This document shows, one piece after another, positions 55,699 through 64,000 of a DNA stretch of 64,000 nucleotides; the first letter of the stretch is position 1, and each line of letters begins with the position of its first letter. The notes under the pieces were generated by a model. The model had not been told where the DNA came from, ran no database searches, and saw nothing but the letters and a program-made list of their open reading frames with translations. The position numbers were made by a program, and so were the translations under genes. Source of the stretch: Planctomycetota bacterium (GTDB taxonomy: Bacteria > Planctomycetota > UBA1135 > GCA-002686595); the NCBI GenBank assembly GCA_021413885.1, contig JAIOPM010000005.1, forward strand, positions 62,001 through 126,000, given 5' to 3'.

Positions 55699-58362
55699 TC
55701 ACGGCCCGAAGAACGTCTTGCCGCCGTTGCTCAGGCCGACGCCGGTGCCGTCGGGATGTTGCGGATCGCGATACCAGACTTGGTAGTAGCGCGTGATGCC
55801 GACCATCGTCGCGTCGACCGGGACCGGAATGTAGTCGGTGCCGAACGCGTCGAACTTCATGTTCGGGCCGCGCTTGATCGGCAAGCCGATCCACAGCGTG
55901 CCGCCTTGGAACGGGAGCTGCGCTTGGCTCGCGCTGTAGATCAGCGAGCCCGGTTTGTTCGAGACACCGCCGAACACGTTGATCGAGAAGTCGTTCGCGG
56001 AGAGCGACGGCGTGCCGGTCGACGCGAGGAACGGTTGCGTGCTGAACGAGTTGGTCTTGCCGGTGCCGTAAGCAATGAAACTTGGGACGGGTTGGATCTC
56101 GAAGTCCCAGATGCCGCGGCCGTACGTGCCGAAGCGCGCCGTCGCGCCGGCGTCGACGATCTCGACCGACCAGTAGGTCGTGATCGGCGAACCGAGCGAC
56201 GAGATCGTCTCCCATGTCGCGGTCGCGCGGTGCCAACGCAACGCGGACTGCTGCGCGCCGGCGTAGAGATCGCCGGTGCCGTCGGTCGCGTACGCGAGCG
56301 AGTAAACGTGCGTCTGCGGCAGGCCGTTGTTCTCCGGCGCGAAGGTCGCGCCGCCGTTGGTCGAACGGATCACGCCCGACGTGCTGTAGCCCGACCCGCC
56401 GATCGCGCACTCGAGCGCGTTGGTCGGGTGGACCGAGATGCCGTTGCCGTAGAAATACTGTTGGCCCGGAGCGGTCGACGCGGATTGCGTCCACGTCACG
56501 CCGTGGTCGGTCGAGAACCAGATGCGTCCGCCGTCGTTGACCGCGTAGACGCGATTCGAGTCGCTCGGCGCGAACGCGAGCGCGGTCAGGAAGCTGCCGC
56601 CGATCGCGAAGTTCTGATTCGACTGCAACGTCGTCGTCCACGAGCCGTTGGTCTGCCGCGTGTACTTCCACAGCTGATTGCCGAGGAAGTAGAAGACCTT
56701 GTTGTCGCCCGGATCGGCGACCACCGGCGGCAACCAATCGTTCGACGCGCCGCTCGGGAAGTTGAGCGTCGACGTGTTCGCGGAGTTCTCACCTTCGACG
56801 AGCAGGATGAAGCCCGGGTACGTCGAGACGACGCGCGCGTGCGAGCCGTCGGACGACGTGAGGTGTCCGTAGTCGCCGCTGATCAACTGGGCGAAATTGC
56901 TCGACGGCCCGGCGCCGGTCGACGCGACGAAGCTCCCGCGCTGATAACCCTGATCCTGCGCGCCGGCTTGGATCAGCGTCGGAGTCGCCTTCGACGTGAG
57001 CGTCGAGTAGTACTGCGACACGCCGAGTCCGGAGAGACACAGGTTCTGCACCGTCGCGCCGAAGTTGGTGCTCTTGTACAGCCCGCCGTCGGTGCCGAAG
57101 AACCACAAGTCGTTGGTCGGGTTCGCGGGATCGACGAACACGTCGAAGCCGAAGAGGTCGGCGTGGAGCTTGTTCGACGGACTGCCGTAGTACGAACCCC
57201 ACGTGTTGATGCTGGCGAAGCTCGCGCCGGAGTTCGTCGAACGGTGCGCTTCGATGTCGCCCCACATCACGATGTTGGGCGCGAAGCTCGACGCGCAGAG
57301 CGTGCCGTAGAAGCCCCCGATCGTGAACGGGTTGGTGAAGCTCGCGCCGCCGTCGTCCGAGCGCCACAACTTCCACGTCCCGCCGTTCGCGAGCGCGACG
57401 TAGAGCGTCGGCGAACCGGCTTCCGAACCGGTGAGCACGCAATCGGTCGCGCCCGAGTCGGCGACGCCGAGCGGCGCGAAGGTGCTCCCGCCGTTGGTCG
57501 AGACGAAGCACGCGCCCTTGACGAAGAGGTAGACGCTCGCGAGCGAACCCGCGCCGCGCCGCGGGATCCAGAACGACGCGGCGCCGCTGGTCGCGTGTTG
57601 GTAGCGCTTGGTGAACGTGCGTCCGTAGTCGGTCGACGCGTAGAGCGCGGGCGCTCCGCCGGCGTTGGGCTTCACGAGCACGAGCAACGTGTGCGCCGCA
57701 TCGAGGAACCGCCCGACGCCGCGGATCTCGGAGACGTTCGTCAAACCGGTCGGCGTCTCCCACGTCGCACCTTCGTCGCGCGTGACGCGGATCGTGTTCG
57801 ACGCACCGACGACCAGCACGACGTCCGGTTGTCCGCCGAACTCGCCCGGGATCGACGCGACGTCGTACACGCCGCCGTAGAGGTTGTCGCCGAGCGGCGC
57901 CCAGCTCGAGCCGTTGAGATCGCCCTTCCACAGACCGCCGAGATCCGAGCCCGAGTAGAGCGACACGCCGTCGCTCGCGAGCGTCGCGCACCACATGCGG
58001 CCCGCTTGGTTCTTACTGCCGACTTCGCTCCACGTGTTGACCGCCGCGAGTTGGCCGCTCTTCGCGAGCGCGTTGCGCCGCGCCATCTCGGCCTCGCCGT
58101 TCGCACGTTCGATCGCGCGCCAATCGACGCCGGGCGCGGCGTGGTGGCGGTTCTCGATCCACGCGCGACGTTCGTCGGCGCGTTCCTCGACCTCCTCCTC
58201 CATCCCCTCGTCGAAGTCGGCGCCCGCGGGCGACGGCTCGACTTGCGCCGCGATCGGCTCGGGGAATTGCGCTTGGCCCAGCGCGACGCGTTCGGAGCCG
58301 CGCGAATGTTCGCGGCAAGCGGCGAGAGCGACGAGGCAGACGAACGGCAGCAGCTTCTTCAT
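55699..58362 (-). CDS. Secreted lipoprotein with BNR/sortilin-like repeats and shared C-terminal module
   Basis: 887 residues. It starts MKKLLPFVCLVALAAC, a lipoprotein signal with Cys16. An acidic linker (~50-70, EEEVEERADERR) leads to about 12 repeats with the Asp-box/BNR pattern (STDYGRTFTKR, STNGGSTFAPL, SDDGGASFTNP, STDHGVTWTQS, STNGGATFAPE). This is a sortilin or exo-sialidase type propeller. The last ~130 residues are the Cys-poor form of the shared module (PFQGGTLWIGLPIKRG, VWYRDPQHPDGTG). No catalytic residues are evident; adhesion or glycan binding is likely. The flanking 170 bases (58363-58532) upstream show no feature. Confidence 0.82.
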   Translation of the reverse strand: MKKLLPFVCLVALAACREHSRGSERVALGQAQFPEPIAAQVEPSPAGADFDEGMEEEVEERADERRAWIENRHHAAPGVDWRAIERANGEAEMARRNALAKSGQLAAVNTWSEVGSKNQAGRMWCATLASDGVSLYSGSDLGGLWKGDLNGSSWAPLGDNLYGGVYDVASIPGEFGGQPDVVLVVGASNTIRVTRDEGATWETPTGLTNVSEIRGVGRFLDAAHTLLVLVKPNAGGAPALYASTDYGRTFTKRYQHATSGAASFWIPRRGAGSLASVYLFVKGACFVSTNGGSTFAPLGVADSGATDCVLTGSEAGSPTLYVALANGGTWKLWRSDDGGASFTNPFTIGGFYGTLCASSFAPNIVMWGDIEAHRSTNSGASFASINTWGSYYGSPSNKLHADLFGFDVFVDPANPTNDLWFFGTDGGLYKSTNFGATVQNLCLSGLGVSQYYSTLTSKATPTLIQAGAQDQGYQRGSFVASTGAGPSSNFAQLISGDYGHLTSSDGSHARVVSTYPGFILLVEGENSANTSTLNFPSGASNDWLPPVVADPGDNKVFYFLGNQLWKYTRQTNGSWTTTLQSNQNFAIGGSFLTALAFAPSDSNRVYAVNDGGRIWFSTDHGVTWTQSASTAPGQQYFYGNGISVHPTNALECAIGGSGYSTSGVIRSTNGGATFAPENNGLPQTHVYSLAYATDGTGDLYAGAQQSALRWHRATATWETISSLGSPITTYWSVEIVDAGATARFGTYGRGIWDFEIQPVPSFIAYGTGKTNSFSTQPFLASTGTPSLSANDFSINVFGGVSNKPGSLIYSASQAQLPFQGGTLWIGLPIKRGPNMKFDAFGTDYIPVPVDATMVGITRYYQVWYRDPQHPDGTGVGLSNGGKTFFGP

Positions 58363-58532
58363 CTTCGGAGACGGTCGAGACGCGACGGACCAAGAACGGT
58401 GGAACGCTCGATCGTACCCGCGCCGAGGACGCGGTTGCGGAGCGCGAAGTTCCGGTTCGTTCAAAAATCTCGCCGGCTCGCGCGAGGAAGCGCGAAGCGC
58501 GCACCGGCGCAGGCTCAGGGAGGCAAACGCTT

Positions 58533-60110
58533 CTAGCGCCGGACTTCGAACTCGCGCAGGACGTAGCGATCGGGCTCGACGCCGGGCCGCAGCGCGAGTT
58601 CGCCGAGCAAGTCGGCGGCCGGGAGCTCGAAGAACACCTCGTTCACGCCCTCGCGCAACGTCGCGGTGAGACCCAGGCCGCGCGTGAAACGCGGCGACGC
58701 GCGCGTCTTGAAGAAGAGCTGGAGCTCGGTCGCGCGCGGGCTGTCGACGACGAGACGCACGACGAGCGGCGCCGTGCCCGCGACGTCGAACTTCGGCAGC
58801 ACGACGTAGTCCGACGCGAGCGTCGTGGTGAGCGCGAGCCCGTCGCCCGTCGCCTCGACCGTCGGCCGACCGACGAGCTGCAAGCGCGCGCGATCTTCGT
58901 TCGGCGAAAGCCGCAACAACACGTCGTGCGCGGACGACCAACGCTCCGCGCGACCGGTCGGACTGTCGGCGAGCTCGTCGGGCGACAACGTCGGCTCGCT
59001 GACGACGAAGTAGCGATCGCTGAAGAGCAGCACGACGACGTCCGGCGCGAACGCGGCGATCTCGCGCGGCTCGAAGCCGTACTGCCAACGCGTCCACGTC
59101 TCGCGAAAATGCTCACCGAGCCACGCGCGGAGGTCGGGCCCGAACGAATCGTGCAGGAAGTACGCCTTGCCGAGCGGCGCGGCGGCGCGGGAGAGCTTCG
59201 CGTCGCGCACGTACTCCTCGAGCGACGGTACCGCGACCGCGCGCGGCGCGGCGAGTCGCCAACGCTGCACGCGTTGGTGCAAGATGTCGTCGAGGTACAT
59301 GCGGCCGGCCCACGTGTCGCCTTCGGACGCGTCGAGCTCGCGCACGAAATCACTCGGCTCGAGCGGCGCGAGTTCCGGATGCGCACGCGCGATCGCAGCG
59401 ACGATCGCTCGATAACCCGCGAACGCCCCGCGATCGTCCCAGTGCGTCCCGTACGGCGCGAACGACGGATCGTCGGGAGTGTCGAGCTCCTTCTCGCGCC
59501 GCAACACCGGCTCGAGATCGATCCACGCGTCGTTCCACTCAGGGCCAAGCGCCGCGCGCACTTGGTCGACGCGTCCCGGACCGAGGCGCGCGAACGCAGG
59601 CGGCAAGAGCTCGGGATAGATGCGCGCCTTGCTCGGCACGATCGCGACCAGGAACTGGATGCCGCGCGCTTCGCACCACGCTCGGCGCGCGTCGAACACG
59701 CGCTTCCACGCAGCGACCGCGTCGGGCGCGAGCGGTCGCGCGCCGCGGTCCGCGTGCAGCGCGTCGTTCGTGCCCTGGTAGAAGAGCCAACCGTCGCGAC
59801 CCTTGACGACGAGCTCCGCCGGCGCCGTGTCGAACACGCTCCACGTCATGTGATTGCGCGTGCCGATCAACACGTCGCGCAAGCCGAACCAATCGTTCCA
59901 CCAACGCTCGGCGCGCGCGGGGAAGCGCAGGACGTCGTCGAGCTTCGCGCTCGCGGGCGGCGGCTCGGCCGGAACGCGTCGCTCGCGCGCCGGCGATCGC
60001 GCCGCGCTCGGGCGCAACGCAAAATCCGCGAGCGGCGCGCAGAGCCCGGCGACGAACACCACGCCGAGCGCGGTGTCGAGCAAGCGTCGCAGACGAACGT
60101 TCGCGGCCAT
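58533..60110 (-). CDS. AlgX/AlgJ-like SGNH O-acetyltransferase
   Basis: 525 residues. It has a signal anchor (about 10-30), then ELVVKGRDGWLFYQGTNDAL, the AlgX/AlgJ N-terminal motif, VPSKARIYPELLPP, GTHWDDRGAFAGYRAI with the catalytic Asp-x-x-His region, and YFLHDSFGPDLRAW bearing the nucleophile Ser in a DSF block. The order (DxxH before GDS-like) is that of the alginate acetylation proteins. It works with MBOAT enzymes to acetylate exported polysaccharides. The broken MBOAT gene is directly upstream, four bases away, so the pathway may be inactive. A C-terminal beta domain (~390-525) could bind carbohydrate. Confidence 0.85.
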   Translation of the reverse strand: MAANVRLRRLLDTALGVVFVAGLCAPLADFALRPSAARSPARERRVPAEPPPASAKLDDVLRFPARAERWWNDWFGLRDVLIGTRNHMTWSVFDTAPAELVVKGRDGWLFYQGTNDALHADRGARPLAPDAVAAWKRVFDARRAWCEARGIQFLVAIVPSKARIYPELLPPAFARLGPGRVDQVRAALGPEWNDAWIDLEPVLRREKELDTPDDPSFAPYGTHWDDRGAFAGYRAIVAAIARAHPELAPLEPSDFVRELDASEGDTWAGRMYLDDILHQRVQRWRLAAPRAVAVPSLEEYVRDAKLSRAAAPLGKAYFLHDSFGPDLRAWLGEHFRETWTRWQYGFEPREIAAFAPDVVVLLFSDRYFVVSEPTLSPDELADSPTGRAERWSSAHDVLLRLSPNEDRARLQLVGRPTVEATGDGLALTTTLASDYVVLPKFDVAGTAPLVVRLVVDSPRATELQLFFKTRASPRFTRGLGLTATLREGVNEVFFELPAADLLGELALRPGVEPDRYVLREFEVRR

Positions 60111-60114
60111 CGCG

Positions 60115-61559
60115 TCAGAAGCGGAAGTAGATGAAAGGGTTGTACGCCGACGACGCGAGCTGCATCGCCGAGAGCCAGAAGAGGCCGATCAACGTCGCGA
60201 ACGCGCCGAGTTCGAGCAGCGCGGAGAAGATCGGATTCGCACCGCGCTCGACGCGCCTTTCGTAGGCTCGCCGCGCCGCGTCGAGCCACGGCAGCGAGCC
60301 GATCACGCCGGCGACGAGCGCGCACGCGACCATCCGATCGAGGTGCAGCGCGAGCGGCTCGACCGCGCTCGCGAACGGCGCGGCGCCGAACAGCGCCGCG
60401 AGCATCTCGTTCGCGCGCTCGAGATGATCGGCGCGGAAGAAGACCCAACCGACCATCACGACGAGCAAGACGTAGACGTGGCGCAACGGCCGCGGCGTGC
60501 GCTCGAGCCCCGCGCCGAGTCCCGCGCGTTCGAGCACCAGGAACACGCCGTGGTAGAGACCCCAGAAGAGGAACGTCCAACTCGCGCCGTGCCACAGGCC
60601 GCACAACGCGAACACGACGACGAGATTGAAGTAGGTGCGCGCTCGTCCGCCGCGATTGCCGCCGAGCGGGATGTAGAGGTAGTCGCGGAACCAACTCGAC
60701 AGCGAGATGTGCCAACGCCGCCAGAACTCGGTGATCGAGCGCGAGACGTACGGGTGCTCGAAGTTCTCGAGGAACCGGAATCCGAACATGCGGCCGAGCC
60801 CGATCGCCATGTCCGAGTAGACAGGTCGGCGCTCGGCAACGCGAAGATCGCGTCGACCGGCTTCGCGACGACGTTCGCGATCAGGACTTTCTTCGCGAGG
60901 CCGAGCACGAAACGGCGCACGCCCCACGCGAAACCCTCGCGCGTCACCGTGCGCGTCACGATCTCGGCGGCGACGTCCTTGTAGCGGACGATCGGCCCGG
61001 CGATCAGCTGCGGGAAGAGCGACTTGTAGAGCGCGAAGTCGCGGATGTTCTTCTGCGCGGGCGCGTCGCGGCGCGCGACGTCGAGCACGTAGCTCAACGC
61101 TTGGAACGTGAAGAACGAGATGCCGATCGGAAGACGCAAATGCCCGGTGTCGGAGAGCAACCAGTCGCGCGCGAACGGCCGGTCACCGAGCAGCGTCGCG
61201 AACGTCGGCCAATGTTCGTCGGCGACGCCGACGGCGACGAGCCAACGTCCGACTTCCGCGAGCAACCAATCCGCGTACTTGAAGAAGCCGAGCAGCGCGA
61301 GGTTGAAGACGACCGCGCCGAGCACGAGGCGCCGCTTCGCTCTTGCGTCGTCGAGCGCTCGATCGATGCGCGCGCCGAACCACCAGTTGACGACGATCGA
61401 CGTCATCATCAACAGCAGGTAGACGGGCTCGCCCCAGGCGAAGAAGAGCAAGCTCGCGAAGAGCAACACTCCGTTGCGCCACGTCCGCGGCGCCAGGAAG
61501 TAGAGCGCGAACAGCGCCGGCAGGAACGCGAACAGGAAGAGCGGCGAACTGAAGAGCAA
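60115..61559 (-). pseudogene. MBOAT O-acyltransferase, broken by a deletion/frameshift
   Basis: Two minus-strand frames make up one MBOAT. The first (TTG start, LLFSSPLFLFAFLPALFAL) covers the N-terminal helices up to FALPSADLS (about 245 residues). The second continues YSDMAIGLGRMFGFRFLENF, ITEFWRRWHISLSSWFRDYL and LWHGASWTFLFW (the MBOAT histidine) to the end. At 60819-60821 the frames meet with a shift. The usual ~20-25 residues between DLS and GYSDMA (a helix ending in IYFDFSG) are missing, so a deletion of a length not divisible by three has occurred. Otherwise the pair with the AlgX-like gene would acetylate a polysaccharide. A sequencing/assembly error cannot be excluded. Confidence 0.82.
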
Positions 61560-61576: not shown

Positions 61577-61680
61577 GTACGGAGCCAGCCTCAACTCGGC
61601 CGTTTTCGCGGGGGGAGTTCGTTGCAGCAACTCCAAGCGTAGGGCCCGCGAAAACGGCCGAGTTGAGGCTGGCTCCGTAC
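61577..61680. repeat. Palindromic element, copy 1 (36-bp perfect arms)
   Basis: 104 bases. The left arm GTACGGAGCCAGCCTCAACT-CGGCCGTTTTCGCGGG is repeated perfectly as its reverse complement at the right end, around a loop of about 32 bases. The arms are identical to those of copy 2; the loops differ but align. It starts 12 bases after the stop of the protein at 61693 and lies just before the MBOAT start. GCTAGC/CTAGC occurs on both outer sides, a possible trace of insertion. Confidence 0.95.
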
Positions 61681-61692
61681 TGCCGCGCTAGC

Positions 61693-63171
61693 TCACGGAC
61701 AGATGTGGAAGCTCACCGCGTCGCTCAAGCCGGTGCCGAACGCATCGCCCGGATCGCGGAACCAGAACTGCGCCCAGACCTGCGCGCCCGCGACCAACGC
61801 CGGGTTCTGGCCCGAAGCGATCAGCGCGTTGAACGGGATCGAGTACTTGCCGCTGCAGCCCGTCGTGCCGCCGGAGTTCTGCGGCGCGCTGCGCTTGATC
61901 GGCGCCTTGACGCACAACACACCGCCTTGGTACGGCGCGTTGCTGGCCCCGGCGGTGCTGTAGAAGAGCAGCCCGTTCTTGTTGACGCCGATCGAGGCGC
62001 ACTCGATCGCGAAGCCGCTGCCCGCCGACGCGGACGGACCGCCGCTGGTCGAGATCGCGGGCACACAGCCCGTCGACGTCGTCTTCGCGACGCAGTACGT
62101 CGACACGACGTTCGTGCCGCACTGGCCCGGCCGAACTTCGGTCCAACTCATCGGCGCGAACCCGGCCGGCGAGATCGGAGCGGAGGTCGAGAGGACGGTA
62201 CCGTCGCCGGTCTCACCCGCCGCGTAGAGACGCACGACGTGCGCTAGCGGATCGACGCAGACGCCCTTGCCGAGCACCGTCGAGTAGGTGCCGTTGATCA
62301 TTGCGATCCCGTTCGCCAACGTGCCGGGCGACGCGTAGTGCGAGAGGCTCACGCTCTGCGGATCGAACTCGAGGAACTCCGCGACGACGCCGCTCGCGTT
62401 CGGATTGATGCACAGGAGTACGTGCCCGTTCGGCAGGGTCCCGATGCCCGCCGGAAAGTTCGAGCTGCCGACCGTCGAGAGCTGGAACTGCGCGCAAGAC
62501 TCGGGTCCGATCATGCGCGAACCGTCGGCGGAGAGCGGGAGCTTGTGCACGATCACGTAGTTGAAGTTCGTGCCCGAACAGATGTTGGTCGCCGCGCCGT
62601 GCATCGCAACGATCAACGAGTTCGACGCGGCGTCGTAGGTCATGGCGCTCGCGGTGTTCATCCACGGCGGACTGAACGGACTCACGCCCGTCGAATCCAT
62701 CAGGTTCTGCTCGACGTTCGTCGCATCGAGGTAGCGCAACGGCGGCGTGAACGCGACGCCGCCCGCCGTGTAGTACACGCGGCCGCCGGACGCCGGCGAC
62801 AAGAGCGAGAACTGCAGGCTGTTGTTCGAGTGAAGGAGCTCGAGCGTCCCTTGCGAGTCCGTCGTCCAAATGCCGAGCGGCGCTCCGTTGTAGGGCACAC
62901 CGGAGAACAGCACGCGATCGCGGAACGCGTCGTACGCGACGCCTTGCGTCATGGTGCCGCCGCTGAAGAAGTCGACCAGCACGCTGATCTGGCCGCTCTG
63001 CGGATCGATGCGCGCGAGGCCGGTGCCGCCGTCGGCGAACGGAGCCTGCGGGCCGCCGATCGAGAAGATGAGGTCGCCCGGCGTGAACCCGCCGGATTGG
63101 GCCGCGGCCGCGGGAACCGCGACGGCGAGTGCGAGAGACGCGAGCAGCCGGGAACGGACGGTGAACGACAT
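61693..63171 (-). CDS. Secreted propeller-like protein with shared C-terminal module
   Basis: 492 residues. The signal ends at about AAAAQ (24), then a region with propeller-like strands (GLARIDPQSGQISVLVDFF, IWTTDSQGTLELLHS, FLEFDPQSVSLSHYASPG) up to ~340. The final ~140 residues are the shared module with STYCVAKTTSTGCVPAI, PYQGGVLCVKAPIKRS, CSGKYSIPFNA and WFRDPGDAFGTGLSDA. Function unknown; it is probably displayed on the surface or exported. It is flanked by both copies of the palindromic element. Confidence 0.8.
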   Translation of the reverse strand: MSFTVRSRLLASLALAVAVPAAAAQSGGFTPGDLIFSIGGPQAPFADGGTGLARIDPQSGQISVLVDFFSGGTMTQGVAYDAFRDRVLFSGVPYNGAPLGIWTTDSQGTLELLHSNNSLQFSLLSPASGGRVYYTAGGVAFTPPLRYLDATNVEQNLMDSTGVSPFSPPWMNTASAMTYDAASNSLIVAMHGAATNICSGTNFNYVIVHKLPLSADGSRMIGPESCAQFQLSTVGSSNFPAGIGTLPNGHVLLCINPNASGVVAEFLEFDPQSVSLSHYASPGTLANGIAMINGTYSTVLGKGVCVDPLAHVVRLYAAGETGDGTVLSTSAPISPAGFAPMSWTEVRPGQCGTNVVSTYCVAKTTSTGCVPAISTSGGPSASAGSGFAIECASIGVNKNGLLFYSTAGASNAPYQGGVLCVKAPIKRSAPQNSGGTTGCSGKYSIPFNALIASGQNPALVAGAQVWAQFWFRDPGDAFGTGLSDAVSFHICP

Positions 63172-63275
63172 GGGAGAGCTCCTGACAGGACCGAGGGAAC
63201 CGAGGACGGTGAACTCCCCCTCCATCCGCCCGCTTCGTCGTCCGTGACGGACATCGGCGGATTTCTCCGACGGAC

Positions 63276-63380
63276 GTACGGAGCCAGCCTCAACTCGGCC
63301 GTTTTCGCGGGAGGGAAGCGCTTGCAGCGACTCCGAGTCTGCGGCCCGCGAAAACGGCCGAGTTGAGGCTGGCTCCGTAC
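63276..63380. repeat. Palindromic element, copy 2 (36-bp perfect arms, extended to 43)
   Basis: 105 bases, arms identical to copy 1. The pairing extends outward by seven more bases (GACGGAC / GTCCGTC). The loop (about 33 bases) differs from copy 1 at roughly half of its positions but shares TTGCAGC-ACTCC. It lies five bases after the stop of the Pus10-like gene and about 104 bases upstream of the start of the module protein. Confidence 0.95.
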
Positions 63381-63385
63381 GTCCG

Positions 63386-64000
63386 TCAGGTCGGTTCGCG
63401 CACGACGACCGAAGCGCCGAACTCGTTCTCGCGGGCGCCACCCTCGTCGAGGATCGCGATCACGTCGAGTTCGAGGCACTCGCACGGCACGCCGAGCAGC
63501 TCGGCCAGCGACGGCCGCGTCGAACCGTTCTCGCCGCTCACCGCTTCCTTGACGTACGTGCCGTGCTCGGTGCGCAGCAGGACGTCGTACGCGAGGTCGC
63601 CGGTCTTCTCGATCGACAGGACTTCGATCCAACGCTCGCGATCGAGGTCGGCGCGGCGATGCGCGACGCGTTCCGGCGTGTGTTGGATGATCTGGAGCCG
63701 CCGACCGACCAGCGCCGCGACCTTCGCCGGTTCGAGCTCGCGCTCGACCTTGACGGCGGCGCGGTATTCCTTCGCGTGCTTCTCTTCCTTGACGACGCGC
63801 ACGCGCGACTTCTCGGTCCAGTGCAGGCCGTGGACTTCGAGGCGACCGGCGTTGCGGCGGTTGATCTCGGCTTCGGCGGCGGCGAGGTCGACCTCAAACA
63901 CCTTCGGCGCGACCATCTCCATCACGAACGGCCGGCCGGTGCCGAGCATGCGCACGTTGACGTCCTCGCGGCCCGCGCCGTGGAACTTGTTCTTGCGCGT
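63386..64000 (-). CDS. pus10: tRNA pseudouridine synthase Pus10, C-terminal part (runs off the window)
   Basis: 204 codons up to the window edge. The catalytic region reads HGAGREDVNVRMLGTGRPF (DVDVRMLG in most archaeal proteins, so one Asp is Asn here). It is followed by EKSRVRVVKEEKHAKEYRA, QIIQHTPERVAHRRADLDRE, GTYVKEAVSGENGSTRPSLA and LDVIAIL, all in the order of Pus10. Pus10 makes pseudouridine at positions 54 and/or 55 of tRNA and is known mainly from archaea and eukaryotes. The N-terminal THUMP-like half lies outside the window. A palindrome follows five bases after the stop. Confidence 0.88.
   Translation of the reverse strand, partial: TRKNKFHGAGREDVNVRMLGTGRPFVMEMVAPKVFEVDLAAAEAEINRRNAGRLEVHGLHWTEKSRVRVVKEEKHAKEYRAAVKVERELEPAKVAALVGRRLQIIQHTPERVAHRRADLDRERWIEVLSIEKTGDLAYDVLLRTEHGTYVKEAVSGENGSTRPSLAELLGVPCECLELDVIAILDEGGARENEFGASVVVREPT

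Follow-up and report, generated by a model that had tools for sequence, protein, structure and literature searches.

Palindromic REPIN/TIRtron-type elements behind stop codons of a planctomycete genome and their putative RAYT transposase

The two large palindromes described here are very probably miniature transposable elements of the REPIN/TIRtron type that are non-autonomous and mobilised by a RAYT-type HUH-Y1 transposase encoded on contig C7 of the same genome. They belong to a multicopy set, have their arms in common with the transposase gene, are placed at gene ends and have counterparts in homologous systems of related genomes; we infer that the C7 transposase is the enzyme that moves them. 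The term window denotes the whole 64-kb stretch of DNA that was analysed, which corresponds to positions 62001-126000 of contig C14 in the 4.74-Mb assembly of the source genome (G000).

Two palindromes with common arms downstream of stop codons

The relevant features of the window are the following:

61577-61612, plus strand: left arm of copy 1, 36-nt inverted repeat with 0 mismatches
61613-61644, no strand: loop of copy 1, 32 nt
61645-61680, minus strand: right arm of copy 1, pairs with the left arm
61693-63225, minus strand: gene located between copies 1 and 2, for a predicted 510-aa protein of secreted type, not part of the element
63269-63311, plus strand: left arm of copy 2 with the core starting at 63276; the outer 7 nt (GACGGAC) are flank and also complementary
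63312-63344, no strand: loop of copy 2, 33 nt
63345-63387, minus strand: right arm of copy 2, inverted repeat
63386-64000, minus strand: conserved neighbour gene, 273 aa, continues past the window end; its stop abuts copy 2

Copy 1 (61577-61680) is a palindrome of about 104 nt with perfect 36-nt arms, and the core of copy 2 (63276-63380) is part of a perfect stem with 43-nt arms that spans positions 63269-63387, reaching 7 nt beyond the core on each side. The copies are spaced 1.7 kb apart with one gene between them, and their arms are identical over 36-37 nt while the loops have diverged, which confirms the palindromes as they had been described in the original prediction. The predicted RNA folds of the two copies have energies of -85 and -103 kcal/mol, with z-scores of about -15. 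No further match to the arm was detected in the window at up to three mismatches, and none occurred in 100 dinucleotide shuffles.

Copy 1 is located 12 nt downstream of the stop codon (61693-61695) of the minus-strand 510-aa ORF and the core of copy 2 is located 5 nt downstream of the stop codon (63386-63388) of the next minus-strand ORF, in agreement with the distances given earlier. On its other side, copy 1 is separated by 17 nt from the likely TTG start (61559) of a minus-strand gene encoding an MBOAT-like O-acyltransferase. The latter gene (60115-61559) is apparently interrupted by a frameshift at about 60.8-60.9 kb, with the N-terminal half in the ORF at 60456-61559 and the C-terminal half in the ORF at 60115-60927, and represents either an assembly error or a pseudogene. 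No Pfam domain was matched in the enclosed 510-aa protein. Secreted-type proteins encoded on the minus strand at 61693-63225 and 55699-59097 of the window and at many other loci of the genome have a common C-terminal domain that ends with a GTGLSDAVSFxICP-like sequence; they constitute a large lineage-specific family whose genes often adjoin elements, and the one member tested gave no Pfam match.

The high stability of the hairpins and their gene-end positions, often filling convergent gaps, would also be compatible with bidirectional terminators or stabilisers of mRNA 3' ends that are selected by the host, copied and kept for the hairpin. This explanation is regarded as highly improbable: neither window copy is associated with a U-tract, and a search for intrinsic terminators consisting of a GC hairpin and a U-tract yielded no terminator-like match at copies 1 and 2. 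A predicted effect on termination or mRNA stability would possibly be a by-product.

Copies of the element in the source genome

The whole-genome search with the arm sequence that had been proposed along with the original prediction resulted in the detection of 30 complete dimers on 12 contigs, by means of BLAST and pattern searches in 4.74 Mb of sequence. Single arms were additionally found at the ends of contigs and on either side of one gene. At two mismatches the arm pattern yielded 75 matches, compared with 18 for the reversed-pattern control, and all 64 of these 75 matches that showed at most one mismatch fall inside elements. The element can be described as an inverted dimer of an arm of about 36 nt that starts with (G)TACGGAGCCAG, with ends reading TAC that are mostly preceded by G (GTAC). 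In some copies, the sequences suggest a weak internal pairing of each arm alone (CGGAG...CTCCG). Neither a match to the elements in Rfam nor an exact match to the 32-nt arm in the searched collection of genome contigs was obtained.

Relative to the consensus, 64 arm changes are present on both arms and 18 are one-sided, the former not being equivalent to 64 independent events because subfamilies have common ancestry. The matched changes are in favour of a mobile hairpin element and likewise of selected terminators or stabilisers; they fit with copying of the hairpin as a unit, with hairpin-templated repair and with selection for pairing, and do not tell these processes apart. The target duplications that the original prediction suggested looking for did not emerge: no direct repeat was found beyond TA, which is itself possibly part of the element ends, and the elements differ in this respect from classical (DDE) MITEs.

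A transposase gene flanked by the same arms

Two single arms on contig C7 enclose a gene for a protein of 363 aa, P0001 (locus L033, 5174-6265, minus strand). The terminal arms are identical over 30 nt at both ends of this unit and are the same as those of the dimers, so that the transposase with matching ends envisaged in the original prediction is present in the genome; that a transposase gene is flanked by these arms also speaks against host-selected terminators. The unit comprises 1.24 kb and is located between the stop codons of two convergent genes, one of these stop codons being overlapped by an arm, a position resembling that of many dimers.

P0001 matched the NCBIfam model REP_Tyr_transpos with an E-value of 9e-15 and 54.8 bits, which is below the curated equivalog cut-off of 80, and the Pfam model Y1_Tnp with 5e-7 and 30 bits, which is above the cut-off of 23. 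The HxH pair (HFH in P0001) and Tyr119 are kept in nine homologues. The AlphaFold model of P0001 is poor overall (mean pLDDT 62); its best match in the PDB, with an E-value of 1e-5, is the complex of a RAYT with a REP hairpin (4er8). The C-terminal domain (residues about 268-332) is helical, well modelled and devoid of a Pfam domain.

A second RAYT homologue of the genome is encoded on contig C4 (107-1099, L228). Its terminal arm, TACCGAGTCAGGTGACATTCCACC, differs from that of P0001 and recurs on contigs C31, C49, C59, C6, C51 and C36, in about three cases as a dimer (C31:74168, C59:15134 and C6:73115). The combination of this RAYT with an arm of its own fits with one repeat family per transposase.

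Placement relative to neighbouring genes

In sampled DNA of the source genome, about one third of the elements is located between convergent genes, compared with 17% of the junctions and less than 4% of the intergenic bases. In co-oriented gaps, all 14 usable elements are nearer to the stop codon than to the next start codon, a count that uses position 61559 as the start adjoining copy 1 and relies on start positions that are approximate because the genes were called with a simple codon-usage caller. The clear co-oriented cases of G002, a genome of the same genus, are likewise nearer to the stop codon, at a distance of 0-5 nt. Four elements are located in gaps between divergent genes. Further copies and a relation to gene ends were therefore both found, and the 30 dimers, the cognate RAYT with the same arms and the 3'-end bias support the view that the palindromes are REP/MITE-like mobile elements targeted to 3' ends of genes. 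A downstream bias has also been described for REPs, which can even supply stop codons (PMC3733652).

Among the 36 convergent gaps in the sampled loci, 26 are without an element, which argues against elements kept as terminators. These 26 gaps have a median length of only 7 nt; the closeness to stop codons in convergent gaps therefore needs no special targeting, and targeting to an exact stop distance was dismissed as an explanation. Such short gaps leave little room for classical terminators. Selection against insertions in genes and promoters accounts for much of the placement.

According to the mechanism that we propose, the elements would be moved by the C7 transposase, probably as single-stranded hairpins in the manner of IS200/IS605-type enzymes, and would persist behind stop codons because this is nearly the only neutral space left in the compact genome, while hairpins behind stop codons may be preferred targets. 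Neither a transposition event nor an exact empty site was seen, the junctions in same-genus genomes being too diverged.

Paired copies and the enclosed genes

The dimers are clustered, as 24 of 30 have a neighbour within 7.5 kb, compared with a random mean of 2.6 and a maximum of 11 in 2000 trials. This clustering could indicate a composite mobile cassette in which pairs of palindromes serve as ends and move the enclosed gene, and the window itself provides an argument in favour: neither the 510-aa gene nor either dimer is present at the matching junction in the three same-genus genomes G001-G003, and in G003 only about 95 bp separate the same two neighbour genes that flank the dimer-gene-dimer block in the source genome. 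The cassette is nevertheless regarded as highly improbable, since the genes enclosed at C13, C58, C62, C15 and C18 (for C18 in G003) are native at dimer-free junctions of same-genus genomes and copies 1 and 2 of the window are not each other's closest relatives. The synteny of the enclosed genes in G001-G003 implies that the pairs arise by local spread and are generally not cassettes; a cargo-gene cassette was therefore rejected for most pairs, the window pair being the exception. The element-free orthologous junctions in relatives are moreover a further point against host-selected terminators.

Related systems in other genomes

A set of 61 genomes including the source genome was surveyed with the arm pattern TAC[CG]GAGNCAG[CG]CTC and with reversed patterns as controls. 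Arm matches were numerous in G000 (62), G009 (235), G035 (52) and G002 (37), followed by G023 (15), G022 (13), G030 (10) and G018 (7). In these eight arm-rich genomes the reversed-pattern controls gave 0-1 matches, and a RAYT was present in all of them according to a profile search. G001, G002 and G003 belong to the same genus as the source genome and G009 to another genus; G001 contains neither a RAYT nor an arm match, and G003 contains no RAYT and a single arm match.

The search for relatives also proposed originally thus led to two further systems, each consisting of an own RAYT and of dimers whose arms have diverged from those of the source genome. The RAYT of G009 is 60% identical to P0001 and located between convergent stop codons at a different genomic place, with TGACCATACCGAGCCAGGCTCGCG arms at both ends. 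That of G002 shows 57% identity to P0001, was missed by the Pfam model and carries GTACGGAGCC[AT]GGCTCCACCCCCGC arms on either side. Public genomes contributed 80 loci, and nearly all of the closer relatives among them belong to planctomycete assemblies, two of which, Pla163 and Pla86, are complete genomes. Terminal inverted repeats above a control level of 20, defined as the 99th percentile of displaced controls, were detected at about 20 of the 37 related RAYT loci tested, which are almost exclusively planctomycete, and many of the repeats start with TAC[CG]G[AT]G. G007 and several other genomes contain RAYTs and few or no matches to the arm of the source genome, as would be expected if every RAYT has its own repeat.

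At one junction (C31:139057 in G000 and C243 in G002) an element is present in the same place in both species with different arms, and this points to a hot spot or to an insertion of old date. Two adjacent genes of G002 (C49:5312-7847, L135) have similar C-termini, and each is associated with an element whose right flank is the same in both cases; this pair probably represents a tandem gene duplication that carried the element along.

Complementary flanks and nested palindromes

Complementary runs of at least 4 nt beyond the element were observed at 12 of 31 sites of the source genome, compared with a mean of 2.1 and a maximum of 9 in 5000 shuffles. In the convergent cases that were read by eye, the complementary run is largely located between the two stop codons, for instance TGAGACG-element-CGTCTCA on C56. 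About 10 of 16 elements of G009 extend into longer palindromes with a total length of up to about 380 bp, in which coaxial layers have different outer sequences with TACGG-type ends and mismatches are concentrated in the outer layers. The nested palindromes of G009 (L117, L124, L129, L130, L132 and L133) are built from several arm families, and an arm is the point at which many contigs of this assembly break off.

The excess of complementary flanks over shuffled pairs and the coaxial nesting with its more mismatched outer layers are both consistent with insertion at the tip of DNA hairpins that already existed behind stop codons, either terminators or older elements, as opposed to purifying selection alone. 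We regard this as possible and rather less likely than not, since the elements of G002 are almost without complementary flanks, template-switch repair of quasi-palindromes could equally give rise to such flanks and several nested copies of G009 may stem from one event. Even more tentatively, the RAYT/TIRYT family might insert its miniature elements at hairpin apices, for the most part behind stop codons and with older elements of its own or of other families among the targets, which would lead to coaxial 'Russian-doll' palindromes of up to about 380 bp, stop adjacency and complementary flanks. Other insertion sequences are known to target REPs (PMC1525189).

Comparison with known repeat and transposase systems

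The system works like REPINs and RAYTs, and its anatomy is closest to that of TIRtrons. It resembles the REPINs of Pseudomonas (PMC3116915) in the inverted doublet of about 70-110 bp, the hairpin, the variable spacer, the extragenic location, the occasional insertion into existing REPINs and the presence of a cognate RAYT, which here has the repeat adjoining it. It differs from them in the end tag, which is GTAC and not GTAG or GT[AG]G, in arms that are apparently poor palindromes alone, in a number of 30 copies instead of hundreds and in the single arm at each end of the RAYT gene. TIRtrons (PMC3733652; subclass 2.1, PMC6006769) likewise contain a RAYT-like gene that is bounded by long terminal inverted repeats, and these are unrelated to GTAG REPs, occur also as dimers elsewhere in the genome and show a patchy distribution. 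The motif GGGGWSAS of some published TIRs is matched here at 6 of 8 (GGAGCCAG) or 7 of 8 positions (GGAGTCAG, GGAGACAG), and the helix-turn-helix at the C-terminus of subclass 2.1 can be compared with the helical C-terminal domain of P0001, for which Pfam gave no match. The HUH-Y1 fold and the presumed hairpin DNA substrates are features in common with the IS200/IS605 elements IS608 and ISDra2, from which the unit differs by its long terminal inverted repeats, the lack of TnpB between the arms and the apparent lack of a tetranucleotide target flank.

GTAG-type REPs were previously reported in Planctomycetes (PMC3733652). The earlier statement that the palindrome is not a described element holds for the arm sequence, which together with the planctomycete-lineage set was not found in the publications consulted, and does not hold for the kind of system, since REPINs and TIRtrons are published. 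The kind of system is known, and its notable features are the location of the elements right behind stop codons and, in G009, the coaxial nesting of copies. One transposase gene with clean arms, about 30 dimers, the systems of G002 and G009 and same-genus genomes that are nearly free of elements form a compact set that makes the target choice of RAYTs testable by comparing close strains, and the nested palindromes may record the order of insertions. With respect to genome annotation, these elements account for many assembly breaks and gene-end hairpins in this planctomycete lineage.
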